A stretch of 64,000 bases of DNA from Carboxydocella thermautotrophica. Lineage in GTDB: Bacteria > Bacillota > GCA-003054495 > Carboxydocellales > Carboxydocellaceae. Shown here one piece after another: positions 1,676 to 54,666 of this stretch. Under the pieces are notes generated by a model. That model made no database searches. It saw only the letters and a list, made by a program, of their open reading frames with translations, and was not told the DNA's origin. Every line of letters starts with the position of its first letter. Position 1 is the first letter of the stretch. A program made the translations under genes and the position numbers. Where the stretch lies: the NCBI GenBank assembly GCA_003054495.1, contig CP028514.1, positions 1,104,501 to 1,168,500 of the forward strand. Reading direction: 5' to 3'.

Positions 1676-2977
1676 ATGAAGAAACGCTTTGATGTCCACG
1701 AAAGACCGCCAATAGGACAGGCCCTGGTCCTGGCCCTGCAGCATGTTTTCGCCATGTTCGGGGCGACGGTGCTGGTGCCTTTCCTGACCGGTCTGGATCC
1801 AGCAGTAGCCCTCTTTACTTCCGGGGTAGGGACTATCATCTTTCACCTCTTTACCGGCGGCAAAGTTCCTGCCTATCTTGGCAGTTCCTTTGCCTTTATT
1901 GCTCCTCTGGCAGCCTGGGTAACAGGGGCGAAAGACTTACCTGGCGCTATGGGTGGGGCTTTTGTGGCCGGTCTGGTTTATGTTCTGATGTTCTTTTTGA
2001 TCCGTGCCTTCGGTACGGAATTCATTCACCGGCTGGTACCCAGTGTGGTGGTGGGTCCGGTAGTAATGATTATCGGTTTAAGCCTGGCAGGTGTAGCTGT
2101 CAACAACATGGCCTCCTTGCACTGGCCGACAGCCATCTTTACCTGTGTCATGGCTATCATTTTCAGCATCTTCGGCCGCGGTTTTATGAAAGTAATCCCT
2201 ATTCTGCTCGGCATTATCTCTGGCTATATCTTCGCTATCGTTTGGAACATGGTGGAACCCACCACTATCGGTGAGAACATGAAACTGGTGGACTTTGCTC
2301 CCTTTGTCCAGTCGCTCAATCCTGATACATTGCTGGGTTATTTTCATCTGCCCCAGTTTGTTCTGCCCGGTTTCAAGATGGCGGCAATCTGGGCCATTGC
2401 ACCTATAGCCCTGGTTACCATTATCGAGGACCTGGGCCATGTGCTGGTAATTGGCAATGTGACAGAACGGGATCTGATCAAGGACCCTGGTTTTGACCGG
2501 GTCTTGCTGGGGAACGGTCTGGCTACCTCCATTGCCTCACTGTTCGGTGGCCCGCCCAGCACTACTTACGGGGAAAATATCGGGGTACTGGCCATTACCC
2601 GGGTGTTCAGCTCCTTTGTTATCTGGTGTGCAGCCGGTATTGCCATCCTGTTGAGCTTTTTCAACCCGGTACGGGTGCTGATCAGTACCATTCCGGTGCC
2701 GGTGATGGGTGGAATTGTCATCCTGCTTTTCGGGATGATCGCTGCTGCCGGTATCCGCACCATGATTGAAGCTAAAACCGACCTGTCCAGTACCCGCAAT
2801 CTGATTATTGTCTCCATCATCCTCATCCTCGGGGTAGGGCTGAAGGACCATGGGGTCAGCTATGCTACCCTGGCGGGGATTATCCTCAACCTGATTCTGC
2901 CCCAGGATAAAGTAGAAGATGATGCGGTTCTGACCTTAGAACCTGATACTGTAGAGGAAACAAAACGCCTGCATTAG
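1676..2977 (+). CDS. uraA: Uracil permease (NCS2 family)
   Basis: This is a membrane symporter that imports uracil, which PyrR or Upp can salvage to UMP. The 433-residue protein is hydrophobic throughout. It has the NCS2 features [14 protein letters not shown] and the [11 protein letters not shown] and [20 protein letters not shown] motifs typical of UraA/PyrP. The ATG at 1676 follows AGAGGAGGAC. The gene lies between attenuators 2 and 3, as pyrP does in Bacillus, which fixes uracil rather than xanthine or urate as the likely substrate. The symbol pyrP would be equally valid. Confidence 0.93.
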
Positions 2978-2984
2978 GAAATAC

Positions 2985-3078
2985 TCCTTTAAGGCAGTCC
3001 CGTGAGGCTGGCAAGGAGGGCAAAACAGGCGCGCTTGCTGCTGCCCTTCTCCGGCCTGTTGGGGGAGGGCGTTTTTTG
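2985..3078 (+). promoter_or_regulatory. PyrR attenuator 3 (uraA/pyrB intercistronic)
   Basis: The segment CCTTTAAGGCAGTCCCGTGAGG (about 2987-3008) continues into CTGGCAAGGAGGGC and is the best of the three matches to the PyrR binding loop. The terminator stem is GCCCTTCTCC (3043-3052) with GGGGAGGGC (3062-3070), followed by a T-rich tract. GGCAAGGAGGGC can pair with the terminator's 5' arm as the antiterminator. It would control pyrB and everything downstream. Confidence 0.87.
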
Positions 3079-17094: not shown

Positions 17095-17204
17095 CTCTCT
17101 TATCTCTCAGGCAGTTTGCCTGCAGGAATTGGCACATTTCCGTCTCATAGACGGCTGTTGCCGGGTTTCATCGGGCCAGTCCCTCCACCTCTCTGGATAA
17201 GAGT
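17095..17204 (-). promoter_or_regulatory. SAM-I (S-box) riboswitch
   Basis: On the minus strand the P1 arms CTCTTATC (about 17203-17196) and GATAAGAG (about 17104-17097) enclose the conserved core. The core reads AGAGGTGGAGGGACTGGCC, GATGAAACCCGGCAACAG and GTGCCAATTCCTGCAG, the standard S-box order. A terminator and metN follow. By the known mechanism, high SAM shuts off the methionine importer. A promoter lies directly upstream. Confidence 0.96.
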
Positions 17205-18562: not shown

Positions 18563-18613
18563 GGCGCAGACAAAAGCTATCTAAACCACCTGTCAGTACT
18601 GACGGTGGCTGAA

Positions 18614-18745
18614 AACCTCTATCAACGCTTACGAAGTTAGCTGACGGATTCGGGCCGATAGCTAGCCCTACGCCAAAAGGCGATTCACCCCGAAAAAGTG
18701 GTTCCCCCGCTCTTCCATCAGGAAGATTCAGCGTTATCCTATTCA
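18614..18745 (-). promoter_or_regulatory. c-di-AMP riboswitch (ydaO-yuaA class)
   Basis: On the minus strand the leader contains, in order, ACGCTGAATC, AGAGCGGGGGAACCA, GGGGTGAATCGC, GTAGGGC, CCCGAATCCGTCAGCTAAC, CGTAAGCGTTGATAG. These are the conserved blocks of the ydaO-yuaA aptamer in the right order and spacing. An intrinsic terminator and the aminomutase gene follow. The class normally turns genes off when c-di-AMP is high, so the downstream gene should be on at low c-di-AMP, the state linked to osmotic stress. A spurious ORF covers this element. Confidence 0.9.
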
Positions 18746-29890: not shown

Positions 29891-29920
29891 TTGACAGGCA
29901 AAAAATATCCTGTCTATAAT
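29891..29920 (+). promoter_or_regulatory. Strong promoter of the glycosyltransferase/trehalose operon
   Basis: TTGACA (29891-29896) and TATAAT (29915-29920) are both perfect consensus hexamers with an 18-base spacer. They lie only a few bases after the dapL stop. Transcription should start near 29927, leaving a leader of about 150 bases before the first coding region. Confidence 0.85.
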
Positions 29921-29926
29921 AGTCAT

Positions 29927-30056
29927 AAAAGAGGAAATAAGGAAATAATGTAACTAATGGTTGATAAATGTCTCCCAGGTTCTTGGGTCGGCAGTTATTG
30001 ACATTAGTTTCATTAGCAGCAAACAGGGCGGGAGACATCTCCCGCCTGATTTTTTT
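29927..30056 (+). promoter_or_regulatory. Unassigned attenuator leader with terminator and antiterminator
   Basis: The leader ends in a strong terminator, GGCGGGA (30027-30033) pairing with TCCCGCC (30040-30046) plus extra inner pairs, followed by seven T. Its 5' arm can instead pair upstream: ATGTCTCCC (29968-29976) is the exact complement of GGGAGACAT (30030-30038). The upstream arm lies inside another helix, AACTAATG (29952-29959) with CATTAGTT (30002-30009), which encloses a CCCAG/TTGGG hairpin near 29974-29987. The alternatives are mutually exclusive, as in a riboswitch or protein-controlled attenuator. It matches no class I recognise. A 14-codon ORF (29957-30001) lacks a good ribosome site. 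Confidence 0.6.
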
Positions 30057-30076
30057 GAGCAAGGGAGGGAGAAAAC

Positions 30077-31303
30077 ATGCGAATTGCCCAAATTCACTGG
30101 GCCTTTCCACCCATTATCGGCGGGGTGGAAAGCCATCTGGCCATGCTGGGCCCGGCTCTGGTGGAAAAAGGCTGTCAGGTGAGCCTGTTGACCGGAGCTG
30201 TTCCAGGAGAGCCTGAAATGGCTGAATATGAAGGGATGACAGTTAAAAGAACCCCTTTACTGGATTTAAACAGCCTCAATCCTGAAATCATCGCCGCCAG
30301 GGCGGAAGAGATTCGGACAGAGTTCAAAAACTTTATCGAACAGTTCAAACCGGATATGCTGCATGTCCATAACATGCATTACTTCAGCCCTGTTCATGCT
30401 GATATTCTTTTTGAATTAAAAAAGGAATATGGTATTCCCCTGATTTTGACCAGTCACAACGTCTGGGCTGATAGCGATCCCACCTGGCAGGAGATGAACA
30501 AACGGGCTCAGGCCTGGGATGCTATTATTGCTGTCAGTCACTATATTAAAAGAGAAATGATTCGTGTTGGCTATGAAGAGAAAAAAATCACAGTCATTCA
30601 TCATGGCATTGACCTTAACCGCTTTGTTCCGCCTGGTAGCAAGGACCTGGCGGAAATTGAGCGGATTTATCCCCAGTTTAAGGGGCGGCGGGTGATTTTC
30701 CATCCTGCTCGCATGAGTCTGGATAAAGGCTGCCACATCAGTGTTCAGGCCCTGGCGGAAATCCGCAGGGAATTTCCCGGGGTTTTACTGGTCCTGGCAG
30801 GCACCAGTAAAACGGTGGACTGGGGCTCGCATCAGCAGAAACATGTGCGTCAGATCATGGATTTAATTGAGGAGCTTCAGCTGCAGGACCATGTTTTTGT
30901 GAAGTTGTTTGCCTGGTCGGAAATGCCCCTGGTTTACCAGGCAGCTGAGTTTTGTATTTATCCCTCCTGTTTTGAGGAACCTTTCGGTCTGGTCATGCTG
31001 GAAAGTATGGCTTCTGAGCGGCCCATCATCGTGAGCCGGGCAGGGGGCATGCCGGAAATTGTCAGAGACGGTATCAATGGCTATATCGTGCCCATGGGAG
31101 ATGCCCGCGCCCTGGCAGAACGCTGTTGCCGCTTGCTGGCTGATCCCATTGCCTGCCGGCAGATGGGTAAGACCGGGCGCAGGATGGTGGAAAAGTTCTG
31201 GACCAGGGAAGTGATGACAGAAGCTACACTGGCCGTATATAAAAAAGTTAGCAGAGGCAAAGGGGTAGATTATGAACAGTTGCAACCTTACCAGGCAGGA
31301 TGA
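30077..31303 (+). CDS. Glycosyltransferase, GT4 family
   Basis: The 408-residue GT-B enzyme begins with HWAFPPIIGGVESHLAML and has the donor-binding block ILVLAGT-like region and the EX7E motif in CFEEPFGLVMLESMASERP near residue 310. ATG at 30077 follows GGGAGGGAG, after the attenuator. It shares an operon with a glucan debranching enzyme and trehalose genes. A role in glucan or trehalose metabolism is likely, but the acceptor is unknown. Confidence 0.8.
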   Translation: MRIAQIHWAFPPIIGGVESHLAMLGPALVEKGCQVSLLTGAVPGEPEMAEYEGMTVKRTPLLDLNSLNPEIIAARAEEIRTEFKNFIEQFKPDMLHVHNMHYFSPVHADILFELKKEYGIPLILTSHNVWADSDPTWQEMNKRAQAWDAIIAVSHYIKREMIRVGYEEKKITVIHHGIDLNRFVPPGSKDLAEIERIYPQFKGRRVIFHPARMSLDKGCHISVQALAEIRREFPGVLLVLAGTSKTVDWGSHQQKHVRQIMDLIEELQLQDHVFVKLFAWSEMPLVYQAAEFCIYPSCFEEPFGLVMLESMASERPIIVSRAGGMPEIVRDGINGYIVPMGDARALAERCCRLLADPIACRQMGKTGRRMVEKFWTREVMTEATLAVYKKVSRGKGVDYEQLQPYQAG

Positions 31304-33449
31304 TTTTCGGATTGCCCCGGAGGATATTCGCAGCAGTGTGGAAATACTGAAGGAAGGGCAGATGTTCATGAACTCCCTGCCCGGGGGAGAAATCCCCTGT
31401 CAGGATACAGGCGGACTGGGATTTTATTATGCTGATACCCGTTTTCTCAGCTGTCTGGAGCTGCGACTGAACGGAACAGAACCAATTTTTCTTTCCCGCT
31501 CTGTACGGGACAGCCATATTGCCCAGGTGGAATTGACCAACAAGGACTTTGTCAGCAAGGGTCAGCTGGTACCATTGCATACTATCCATTTGCGCTTGTT
31601 GCGGCTGGTAAGAGATGGGTTTTACCAGCGGTTACGTCTTATTAATTTCAACCAGTATCCTGTGGAACTAACCTTGCGCTTTCGCCTGGGGGCGGATTTT
31701 GCCGATATCTTTGAGGTCAGAGGAACCAGGCGGCAGGTTAGAGGGCAAAGACTAAAACCGGAGTTTTCCCACCAGGGAATCAGCCTTGGTTATCAGGGCC
31801 AGGATGGGGTAGTGCGTAAAACGCGCATATATTTTGCTCCTGCTCCCTCCAGGATAGGGGAAGAGGGTACTTTGGCCTGGGCTGAGTATAAGCTGGTGCT
31901 ACAGCCCCAGAAAAAATACTACCTTTACCTGAAAATCCAACCCTGGCTGGAAGAAAGCCGCCAGCAGGAGGAGACTTTACCCCGGGATCTTGGGTTTAAG
32001 AAGGCAGCCGGTTTTTTAATCCAATCCTACCGGGACTGGATTCAGGATTGCATCAATATCATTACTGACAATCAGCGCTTCAACCAGATGCTGAGAGTAG
32101 GGATTACAGATTTACGGGCCCTGACGACCCATTATCCCGGCAAAGGGGCGGTACTGGAAGCGGGGATACCCTGGTATGCTGCACCTTTTGGCCGTGATTC
32201 CCTGATTACTGCCTGGCAAACACTGCTGGTCAATCCCTGGCTGGCCCGGGAAACTTTGCTTTTCCTGGCCCGCTATCAGGGAGAAAAAATTGACCCCTGG
32301 CGGGATGAAGAGCCTGGCAAGATTTTGCATGAATTGCGTCTGGGGGAAATGGCCCGGGCTGGAGAAATTCCCCATACTCCTTATTATGGTTCAGTGGATT
32401 CCACCCTCTGGTTTATCATCTTACTGGCGGCTTACTACCGCTGGACTGGTGAGCGGGAGCTGCTGGAAAAACTGCGGCCCAATCTGGAACGGGCAATCCA
32501 CTGGTGTGAAGTTTACGGGGACAGGGACCAGGATGGCTATATCGAATATCAATGTCAGTCAGAAAGGGGCCTCATTAACCAGGGCTGGAAGGATTCCTGG
32601 GATGGGGTTATTGATTCTGATGGCCAGCTTCCCACCGGTCCCATTGCTCTGGTGGAGGTGCAGGGCTATTATTACCTGGCCCTGCGGGAAGCAGCTTTTT
32701 TGTACCAGCAGCTGGGAGTGCCTTCATTAGGAGAGCAGCTCCTGGCCAGAGCCCGGAGTTTGCAAGCTAAATTCCTGCAGGATTTCTGGTTGCTGGAGGA
32801 GGAATTTCTGGCCTTTGCTTTAGATGGCCAGAAACGGAAGCTCAAAACCATTGTTTCCAATCCTGGCCATTGCCTGTTTACCGGTATCCTGCCACCGGAG
32901 TATGCCGACAAGGTGGCAAGGCGCCTGTTTGCCCCTGACCTCTTTTCTGGCTGGGGAATTAGAACTATGAGTGACCGGGAGAAGGCCTATAATCCTATGA
33001 GTTACCATAATGGTTCAGTCTGGCCCCATGATAATGCCATTATCGGTTATGGCTTGCGGCAAGCCGGGCAACTGGAAAGACTGTGTTATCTGACGGAAAC
33101 TCTCTTTGCTGCGGCCGAGTATTTTCCCCAGTCCCGTCTGCCGGAACTGTTCTGCGGCTTTACCCGCCGGGGCAATGCTGGCCCGGTCAAATATCCCATT
33201 GCCTGTGATCCGCAGGCCTGGGCGGTGGGCAGTATCTTTTTGCTCCTCAGGGCCTTACTGGGGGTAGAATGCCGTGGTAACCAGATTTTTGTCCGGCAAC
33301 CCCTGTTACCAGATTTTCTGAAAACCCTGCGGCTGGAGAATATCAGAGTAGGAGAAGGCAGAGTAGACCTGGAGTTCACCCGCAGAAATGGTAAGACCTA
33401 TTGTGGAGTCACCGGTACAACTGGCCAGGTGCAAGTGATTTTTGCATAG
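31272..33449 (+). CDS. Amylo-alpha-1,6-glucosidase (glycogen debranching type)
   Basis: The 725-residue protein has an N-terminal GDE_N_bis-like domain with GLGFYYADTRFLSCLELRLNG. Its C-terminal (alpha/alpha)6 catalytic domain is of the GH133/GGDE type: IPWYAAPFGRDSLITAWQ, NQGWKDSWDGV, and YNPMSYHNGSVWPHDNAII with expected acidic residues. The start ATG lies 32 bases inside the end of the GT4 gene. The enzyme would release glucose from alpha-1,6 branches, giving precursors for the two genes that follow. Some homologues act on other oligosaccharides. Confidence 0.85.
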   Translation: MNSCNLTRQDDFRIAPEDIRSSVEILKEGQMFMNSLPGGEIPCQDTGGLGFYYADTRFLSCLELRLNGTEPIFLSRSVRDSHIAQVELTNKDFVSKGQLVPLHTIHLRLLRLVRDGFYQRLRLINFNQYPVELTLRFRLGADFADIFEVRGTRRQVRGQRLKPEFSHQGISLGYQGQDGVVRKTRIYFAPAPSRIGEEGTLAWAEYKLVLQPQKKYYLYLKIQPWLEESRQQEETLPRDLGFKKAAGFLIQSYRDWIQDCINIITDNQRFNQMLRVGITDLRALTTHYPGKGAVLEAGIPWYAAPFGRDSLITAWQTLLVNPWLARETLLFLARYQGEKIDPWRDEEPGKILHELRLGEMARAGEIPHTPYYGSVDSTLWFIILLAAYYRWTGERELLEKLRPNLERAIHWCEVYGDRDQDGYIEYQCQSERGLINQGWKDSWDGVIDSDGQLPTGPIALVEVQGYYYLALREAAFLYQQLGVPSLGEQLLARARSLQAKFLQDFWLLEEEFLAFALDGQKRKLKTIVSNPGHCLFTGILPPEYADKVARRLFAPDLFSGWGIRTMSDREKAYNPMSYHNGSVWPHDNAIIGYGLRQAGQLERLCYLTETLFAAAEYFPQSRLPELFCGFTRRGNAGPVKYPIACDPQAWAVGSIFLLLRALLGVECRGNQIFVRQPLLPDFLKTLRLENIRVGEGRVDLEFTRRNGKTYCGVTGTTGQVQVIFA

Positions 33450-33462
33450 GGGGTGAGAAACC

Positions 33463-34917
33463 ATGGCTCAGCTGTCTTTTTCTGGTGGTAAGACGGGAGG
33501 TCGGTTGCTGGTAGTTTCCAACCGGGGGGCCTGTACTCTGCGTCAGACCCCGGGCGGATTGGCGATAATCCCGGCGGTTAGTGGCCTGGTTTCGGCAGTG
33601 GAGCCGATATTAAGACGGGAAGGGGGGATCTGGGTAGCCTGGGGTGGCCGTTGTGGCCAGGAGCCAGGCCACCTGTTACCCCTGCCGGAAGGAGAGAGTA
33701 AATATCTTTTTGCTGAAGTAGTTTTATCGTCAGAAGAAATTAAAGGCTTCTATGATGGATTTTCCAATAGCATTATGTGGCCTCTTTGTCATGGTTTTTT
33801 GGAAAAGGTTCAGTTTGAAGAAAACTACTGGCAGCTCTACCGCCAGGTCAATGAAAAATTTGCTCGTACTGTGGTCAAAATGAGCAGCCATAACGATCGG
33901 GTTTGGGTACATGATTATCATCTTACCCTATTGCCTGCACTGATACGCAGGCAACGGCCGGTTCTTTCTATCTCCTTTTTCTGGCATGTGCCTTTTCCAC
34001 CAGTGGAATTATTTGCAACATTACCCTGGGCGGGGGAAATCCTGCGCGGCCTGCTGGCCTGTGACCAGATAGGCTTTCATACTGAAAGTTATGTTCGCAA
34101 CTTTCTGCAGGCGGTGGAGGAAATCCTCCGGGCAAGGGTGGATTATCTTAACTCCACTATCCACTGGGGAGGGCGGAAAATCAGGGTTATTGCTGCCCCT
34201 ATCGGGATTGACTGGCGGGAATATCTGACTCTGGCAGCCAGGGAGGAGATCAAAGGCAAGGCAGAGCAAATTCGCCTCGCTCTGCAAAGCGACTATGTAC
34301 TGCTGGGTGTAGACCGACTGGATTATACCAAAGGTATACCCCAGCGATTGCAGGCCTTTTCTCATTTGCTGACAAATTACCCCTGGCTAAGGGGTAAAGT
34401 TGCTCTGTTACAGGTGGTTGTTCCCAGCCGGGTAGAGACAGCAGCCTATCAGAGCCTGCGGCAGGAAATTGAGAAACTGGTGGGAGAAATCAATGGGTTA
34501 TTTACCACCGATTATCAGGTGCCGGTCCGCTATCTCTATCGTTCTCTGACCAGGCAGGAACTGGTGGCCCACTACCTGGCAGCAGATCTGGCTTTAGTCA
34601 CTCCTCTCAGGGATGGGCTCAATCTGGTGGCTAAAGAATATGTAGCATCTAAAGCCCGAGGCACCGGGGGACTGTTACTCAGTCCTTTTGCCGGTGCTGC
34701 CTTGCAGCTAAAAGGTGCTCTGCTGGCCAATCCCTATCATCCCCGGGAGATGGCAGAACAAATCAAACGCGGTCTGGAAATGCCTCTGCCGGAACAGCAG
34801 CAGCGACTAAGTAGCATGATGCGGATTATTAGAGAACAGGATTTAGAGTGGTGGTGGCAGCAGGTGAAAGGAATGAGCAACAATGCGGAGCAGCCGGAAG
34901 TTGCTGCTAATGACTGA
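33463..34917 (+). CDS. otsA: Alpha,alpha-trehalose-phosphate synthase (GT20)
   Basis: OtsA joins nucleotide-activated glucose to glucose-6-phosphate. The 484-residue protein has RLLVVSNRGA, VWVHDYHLTLLPALIR, FFWHVPFPPVELFATLP, GVDRLDYTKGIPQRL and LVTPLRDGLNLVAKEYVA, all standard GT20 blocks. ATG at 33463 follows GGGGGTGAG. The trehalose-phosphatase-like gene overlaps its end by 35 bases. Glucosylglycerol-phosphate synthases share these motifs, so that alternative is not fully excluded. Confidence 0.88.
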   Translation: MAQLSFSGGKTGGRLLVVSNRGACTLRQTPGGLAIIPAVSGLVSAVEPILRREGGIWVAWGGRCGQEPGHLLPLPEGESKYLFAEVVLSSEEIKGFYDGFSNSIMWPLCHGFLEKVQFEENYWQLYRQVNEKFARTVVKMSSHNDRVWVHDYHLTLLPALIRRQRPVLSISFFWHVPFPPVELFATLPWAGEILRGLLACDQIGFHTESYVRNFLQAVEEILRARVDYLNSTIHWGGRKIRVIAAPIGIDWREYLTLAAREEIKGKAEQIRLALQSDYVLLGVDRLDYTKGIPQRLQAFSHLLTNYPWLRGKVALLQVVVPSRVETAAYQSLRQEIEKLVGEINGLFTTDYQVPVRYLYRSLTRQELVAHYLAADLALVTPLRDGLNLVAKEYVASKARGTGGLLLSPFAGAALQLKGALLANPYHPREMAEQIKRGLEMPLPEQQQRLSSMMRIIREQDLEWWWQQVKGMSNNAEQPEVAAND

Positions 34918-35623
34918 TTATGATGGCACTCTGGTTCCCTTGCGGGAAAAGCCAGAGCTGGCAGTACCGGACCAGCAGCTTCTGGACCTGCTCACAGAAC
35001 TGACAGAAAGACAGGAGCAGATTATCGCCATCATTAGCGGCCGGGATTTGCAACAGCTCAAGCAGTTTTTTCCCATCCCTGGTCTCTGTCTGGTCGGTGG
35101 ACATGGTGGGCAAATCCTCTGGCCCGGGGGAGAGGTGGAAAACTGCTTTGATTCTGCAGCCGTCGCAGCGGTGGCAGCCCGCATTGGGGAGATGGCAGAC
35201 AAAATTATGTCCAGGGAATGCGGGTTTTTGCTGGAGTACAAACAAACTGGGGTGGCTGTTCATTACCGGCTGGCACCGCCTCAACTGGCTACAGAGAAAA
35301 TACGTCAGCTGCTCAGCCAGGTCAGACAGTGGCTTCCGGCAGACTGGGAAGTATTATCAGGAAAAAAGGTACTGGAATTCAAACCTGCCTGTACCAGTAA
35401 AGGCAATGCCCTGTTACGCCTGCTTCAGCGCTGGCCCCATTTCTGGCCAGTTTACCTGGGAGATGATGTCACTGATGAATCAGCTTTCCAGGTTCTGGCC
35501 CGGCGGGGTACGGGTATTCTGGTAGCGGACCTGTCCCGGCCAACAGCAGCTCATTTTCGCCTGCGGGATTACCGGGAAGTACGCCAATTATTAAAGACAG
35601 GGATTTCCTGTCTTTTTTGTTGA
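34883..35623 (+). CDS. otsB: Trehalose-6-phosphate phosphatase
   Basis: This HAD phosphatase removes phosphate from trehalose-6-phosphate. The 246-residue protein has the nucleophile motif LLMTDYDGTLVPL, the IAIISGRDL motif, VLEFKPACTSKGNAL with the motif III lysine, and YLGDDVTDESAF as motif IV. ATG at 34883 lies inside otsA and couples translation. Its last codons overlap an intrinsic terminator and the promoter of the next gene. Confidence 0.88.
   Translation: MRSSRKLLLMTDYDGTLVPLREKPELAVPDQQLLDLLTELTERQEQIIAIISGRDLQQLKQFFPIPGLCLVGGHGGQILWPGGEVENCFDSAAVAAVAARIGEMADKIMSRECGFLLEYKQTGVAVHYRLAPPQLATEKIRQLLSQVRQWLPADWEVLSGKKVLEFKPACTSKGNALLRLLQRWPHFWPVYLGDDVTDESAFQVLARRGTGILVADLSRPTAAHFRLRDYREVRQLLKTGISCLFC
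35593..35619 (+). terminator. Terminator inside the 3' end of otsB
   Basis: AAAGACAGG (35593-35601) pairs with CCTGTCTTT (35607-35615) around ATTTC-type loop bases, followed by TTTG. The hairpin lies wholly within the last ten codons of otsB. Confidence 0.75.
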
Positions 35624-54463: not shown

Positions 54464-54473
54464 CATTGTAAAC

Positions 54474-54613
54474 TCCTTCGGGGATAGGTGAAATTCCTTA
54501 CCGGCGGTAGGCAGCATAAGCTGCGAGCCCGCGAGCCGGCTCAGCCGGCAGATCCGGTGCGCCAGAAGGCAAGTCCGGAGCCGACAGTGACAGTCTGGAT
54601 GGGAGAAGGAGGG
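54474..54613 (+). promoter_or_regulatory. FMN riboswitch (RFN element)
   Basis: The P1 arms CCTTCGGGG and GAGAAGG flank the conserved blocks GATAGGTGAAATTCC, TTACCGGCGGTAGG, AGCCCGCGAGCC, GATCCGGTG, TCCGGAGCCGACAGT and AGTCTGGATGGGAG. This is an essentially textbook RFN order. It precedes ribD with a terminator in between, so FMN should attenuate the operon. Confidence 0.97.
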
Positions 54614-54666
54614 CGAGCAAAACAGCCAGTAGTTACTGCACTGGCTGACTATTTAGTTTGCCCTTT

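Follow-up and report, generated by a model that had tools for sequence, protein, structure and literature searches.

A conserved leader upstream of a GT4-debranching enzyme-ots operon is predicted to be a transcription attenuator of a small new RNA family

An operon that begins with a GT4 glycosyltransferase gene and continues through a debranching enzyme to otsA and otsB has an intrinsic terminator (30026-30056) standing between its promoter and its first gene, and the question is how the leader in between may control its expression. The locus was analysed within the window, that is, the whole stretch of 64,000 nucleotides of DNA. The gene lying 5′ of the promoter encodes a class I/II aminotransferase by domain match and is taken to be dapL. 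In the window the GT4 start lies 20 nt 3′ of the terminator end; as the gap between terminator and start codon is only ~20-40 nt here and in the related genome G058, read-through is needed for expression of the operon in both. We found no description of an attenuator for a GT4-debranching-ots operon in the open-access literature. The features of the locus, as identified from sequence, predicted fold and profile matches, are given below.

29891..29920, forward strand: sigma-A type promoter TTGACA-18-TATAAT, consensus match 12/12
29952-30009, forward strand: imperfect predicted anti-antiterminator hairpin overall (P1, middle helix, P2), from the fold
29952..29959, forward strand: P1 5′ strand AACTAATG, the hairpin base, from the fold; basal helices of other sequence occupy the same place in four homologues
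29961..29967, forward strand: middle helix 5′ strand TTGATAA, from the fold
29968..29976, forward strand: putative antiterminator 5′ strand ATGTCTCCC, hidden in the hairpin, exact complement of 30030-30038; conserved in all homologues as (A)TGTYTCC/AGTCTCCC
29974..29987, forward strand: P2 apical hairpin CCCAG-GTTC-TTGGG (arms CCCAG 29974-29978 and TTGGG 29983-29987, from the sequence), from the fold; longer and A/U-rich in the homologues
29990..30009, forward strand: hairpin 3′ side (GGCA, TTATTGA, CATTAGTT), from the fold
30002-30009, forward strand: P1 3′ strand CATTAGTT, partner of AACTAATG in an 8-bp helix
30026..30047, forward strand: intrinsic terminator stem-loop, from pattern scan and fold
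30030..30038, forward strand: putative antiterminator 3′ strand GGGAGACAT, overlapping the terminator 5′ arm and loop
30050..30056, forward strand: terminator U tract, from the sequence
30077..31303, forward strand: GT4 glycosyltransferase, first gene of the operon (Pfam Glycos_transf_1 / Glyco_transf_4), ribosome-binding site at ~30061-30070
31272..33449, forward strand: amylo-alpha-1,6-glucosidase-like (debranching) protein (GDE_N_bis, GDE_C)
33463..34917, forward strand: otsA-like trehalose-6-phosphate synthase (GT20), by domain/profile match
34883..35623, forward strand: otsB trehalose-phosphatase, TIGR00685 above its cut-off

The consensus promoter named in the original prediction is present, as are the 8-bp helix and the CCCAG/TTGGG hairpin it described, both of which appear in the leader sequence and in its fold. 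The helix between P1 and P2 goes beyond that description, for TTGATAA/TTATTGA and TGTC/GGCA pair too. The leader (29927-30056, ~130 nt) has a folding energy of -44.9 kcal/mol with z = -5.07, equal stability being reached in 0/200 shuffles, and the hairpin alone, with the terminator left out, gives z = -3.41. The strand ATGTCTCCC is flanked by the 8-bp helix on one side and the small hairpin on the other, and it shares CCC with the small hairpin. It is indeed an exact 9-base complement as had been claimed, but the claim that its target is the 5′ arm of the terminator holds only in part: the stem has GGGAGA only, and CAT falls largely in the loop. A complement this good was found in 11/2000 dinucleotide shuffles of the leader, and it ranks first among the 13 terminators of the window, a known PyrR attenuator being a close second.

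Orthologues of the GT4 protein were gathered from whole genomes, and three of the closest (G036, G058 and G121; 68-69% identity, three different families) have a recognisably homologous leader, while the upstream regions of more distant orthologues differ. The operons behind these three leaders go on with (debranching enzyme)-otsA-otsB. Each leader starts as a single long, imperfect hairpin (z -4.8 to -8.7) whose 5′ arm carries the antiterminator strand, and the terminator GGGAGACnnnGTCTCCC follows. By eye, the three have no clear consensus promoter, and they may be transcribed from an upstream MerR-like gene. It may be noted that a small MerR-family gene lies 5′ of each (L089 2224-2526, L090 9070-9351 and L091 7416-7736), and that the best NCBIfam match of the one in G036 is the heat-shock repressor HspR, with a score below the cut-off. 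In two further genomes, G064 and G071, there is a terminator ahead of the operon but no convincing homologous hairpin. These are strong terminators 100-200 nt 5′ of the operon (L068 and L070 respectively), and in G071 a 9-pair complement of TTCCCTGCC to GGCGGGGGA, G-U pairs included, is seen by eye further upstream.

Covariance models were then used in the search for copies, one (R1) built from the G036, G058 and G121 leaders only and the other (R2) from four leaders, the window sequence being left out of both. The best match of R1 in the window is the window leader itself (29943-30054, 23.7 bits, E 0.0049), and R2 matches the same positions at 26.1 bits (E 0.00038); the window leader is not among the matches listed in the genome-scale searches with R1 and R2, where filters were stricter or few candidates were scored per genome. 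Over 398 genomes of the phylum R1 gave one more true copy, at G121 C1:2898328-2898448 (L124 1829-1949, 53.7 bits), and apart from this and the known leaders the matches inspected were ordinary terminators. R2 over 30 genomes gave no additional convincing copy and none second in the window's own genome. An exact-signature pattern run on 397 genomes of the phylum returned the known leaders only, besides matches resembling coding sequence, and in viral contigs 58 pattern matches were about the chance estimate, none having a member-like score. We thus count five copies of the leader in four families; the family may be wider, as the genomes sampled are part of the phylum.

The second G121 copy comes with a promoter-like sequence of its own (TTGACA...TATAAT) and shares the buried strand and the terminator of the others; the operon behind it codes for an exported protein with a NEW3 domain and for a DrrA-like ABC (ABC-2) transporter. 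The element is therefore not tied to trehalose genes. This context also argues against a trehalose-specific ligand. We find no support for the earlier suggestion of a ligand related to sugar phosphates or osmotic state, given this second operon and the fact that no aptamer-type loop is common to all copies.

Comparison across the copies separates what is kept from what has changed. The long hairpin (z -3.4 to -8.7) recurs in 5/5 leaders, together with the terminator and the hidden antiterminator strand, and every leader has a complement of 7-12 bp to the terminator arm, found in 0 to 11/2000 dinucleotide shuffles each. The sequence of P1, the basal helix, is different in each leader and its pairing is always kept. 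Covariation was counted on four leaders without the window, because the MAFFT alignment that included the window leader was poor in P1. In the alignment of these four, standard pairs fill 88.7% of the pair cells vs <=54.5% for slid structures, and two-sided changes occur in 11 pairs vs 5.2 in shuffles (0/500 reach this); because the alignment was made to fit the model structure, these figures are somewhat inflated. The hairpin is conserved in the relatives, with compensatory changes. The antiterminator helix, present in 5/5, is nearly invariant with zero two-sided changes (in the fitted alignment that of G058 is shifted by one column), and hence covariation cannot test this pairing. The original prediction had offered as its own refutation a lack of conservation of the alternative pairings in relatives; this test was run and the idea survived, the pairings being kept in three other families.

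The antiterminator helix encloses P2 and the P1 3′ strand and leaves out the P1 5′ strand. As only the 3′ strand of P1 is enclosed, P1 and the antiterminator could coexist only through a pseudoknot, and, the two being exclusive, P1 and the middle helix would serve as the anti-antiterminator. We consider it probable that the leader is a cis-acting transcription attenuator, one of a small RNA family, off by default and opened by a trans-acting signal. Once RNA polymerase has passed the promoter, the leader would fold into the long imperfect hairpin and bury AUGUCUCCC. With AUGUCUCCC hidden, GGGAGACAU would be free to begin the terminator, and transcription would stop ahead of the GT4-debranching enzyme-otsA-otsB operon. 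A trans-acting signal that opens the hairpin or slows its closing would let AUGUCUCCC pair with GGGAGACAU, and this pairing would break P1, block the terminator and allow the operon to be read through.

RNA energies were computed at the decision point, taken as the moment when the terminator 5′ arm has just been made. In 4/5 leaders the hairpin is the more stable alternative at 37 C, with a margin of 3.7-10.3 kcal/mol over the antiterminator. The exception is the window leader, for which the antiterminator fold is already the minimum, so that the default-off state proposed for it rests on the order of folding. In the leaders folded whole, the minimum of the full-length RNA is the hairpin-plus-terminator fold. 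Since the hairpin would be completed before GGGAGACAU is synthesised, we infer that termination is the most likely default.

We also compared the leader with known systems. Rfam covariance models run on the leaders at gathering and permissive thresholds gave no riboswitch or leader family at gathering score. The view that this is an attenuator with mutually exclusive pairings outside the known classes is upheld by this result together with the conservation in three other families. The leader is built like the classical anti-antiterminator/antiterminator/terminator attenuators, with PyrR-like or riboswitch-type logic. In PyrR attenuators the upstream hairpin holds the antiterminator 5′ strand, and stabilising that hairpin leads to termination. 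The upstream hairpin of the window leader likewise holds this strand, but differs from the PyrR type (RF00515) in being longer, in preceding an operon that has no pyrimidine link and in not matching the binding-site model, which finds sites in the window at 1543-1647 and 2982-3077 and none at 29927-30056. With the SAM-I (RF00162) and FMN (RF00050) riboswitches the leader shares the three-part logic, whereas it is a single long hairpin, lacks a multi-helix junction aptamer and matches no Rfam family. The BglG/LicT antitermination systems control sugar-related operons in Firmicutes, and a sugar-related operon under antitermination is what we propose here; however, in those systems the RAT, a short hairpin, overlaps the terminator directly, while in our case the strand lies, by eye, ~50-75 nt upstream inside a long hairpin. 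The L20 leader (RF00558) gave weak matches through a similar terminator and an A/U-rich leader, and membership was rejected at 15.4-22.6 bits vs a gathering score of 58.7. Among the named families tested the leader belongs to none, and we regard it as representing a small, narrow family that is new but of a familiar regulatory type.

As to the signal, our leading candidate, at roughly even odds, is an RNA-binding protein that acts on the long hairpin, ahead of a sugar metabolite. The apical sequence AATTTCTT..GAAATT is common to three copies and missing from the window copy, and this lack of a conserved loop sequence in the window copy leads us to lean towards a protein over a metabolite. A small-molecule riboswitch, in which the long hairpin would be an aptamer stabilised or opened by a metabolite, is in our judgement unlikely. 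It would agree with the exclusive pairings, the lack of an Rfam match, the occurrence of the element before two different G121 operons and the use of such switches by this genome (three riboswitches and two PyrR leaders in the window), but the single imperfect hairpin has no multi-way junction, the apical sequence is wanting in the window copy and the two operon types have no obvious common metabolite. The window riboswitches are of the SAM, c-di-AMP and FMN types (17097-17203, 18612-18743 and 54470-54614).

The remaining explanations fare worse than a riboswitch. That there is no switch at all, only a plain terminator with a chance complement and an operon expressed by constant leakage or from an unseen promoter, we hold to be improbable. 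The antiterminator pairing does lack covariation, and GGGAGAC...GTCTCCC terminators with no antiterminator exist in the phylum (G129). But the window promoter is placed between the upstream gene and the terminator, and hairpin and complement have been kept in four families while the remaining leader diverged. Even less probable is an RNA thermosensor, in which the A/U-rich hairpin would melt before the G/C-rich antiterminator and heat would switch trehalose synthesis on. The energy gap between hairpin and antiterminator narrows with temperature in all copies having one, and the three homologous leaders have the MerR-like upstream gene, nearest to HspR in G036; yet any long A/U-rich hairpin gives the same calculated behaviour. 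We disfavour a simple thermosensor, since the calculated crossover comes only at ~65 C in the two G121 copies, at ~72 C in G036 and higher still in G058, against the moderate growth temperatures suggested by a 16S G+C of 56% in G058 and G121. Ribosome-dependent attenuation through a leader peptide (in the window, the frame MVDKCLPGSWVGSY*) is the least probable of all and fails because, by reading, no recognisable Shine-Dalgarno stands at normal spacing before any frame and frame, length and residues are not conserved, G058 having no comparable frame, even though the window, G036 and G121 have short ATG frames that overlap with this part of the leader, the antiterminator strand.

The same GT4-debranching-ots operon is preceded in three genomes of the g13 genus by a different, highly conserved leader of ~88 nt (L005 ~2690-2790, minus strand; L069 ~1400-1500; L071 ~2685-2785, minus strand), with the sequence GAGGATAA...GAATACAA...GGTGAATAAGGTAAAAAAGAGA..GGAGGTGATGCC and no Rfam match at gathering threshold. 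In its predicted fold CUCC is paired with the Shine-Dalgarno, and on this model the leader resembles a switch acting on translation, by which the ribosome-binding site could be hidden. As this leader differs from ours, RNA control of the operon may have arisen more than once.

Returning to the attenuator family, a wider reading that we put forward tentatively, as possible but doubtful, is that of a new RNA sensor family in which trehalose/alpha-glucan and ABC-exporter operons of several families of one phylum would respond through premature termination to one cellular signal, either a new ligand or a new RNA-binding regulator. The second G121 copy, standing before a transporter operon, offers a handle for finding that signal. 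Through the attenuator family itself, trehalose/glucan synthesis would come under control at the RNA level in bacteria that have been little studied.
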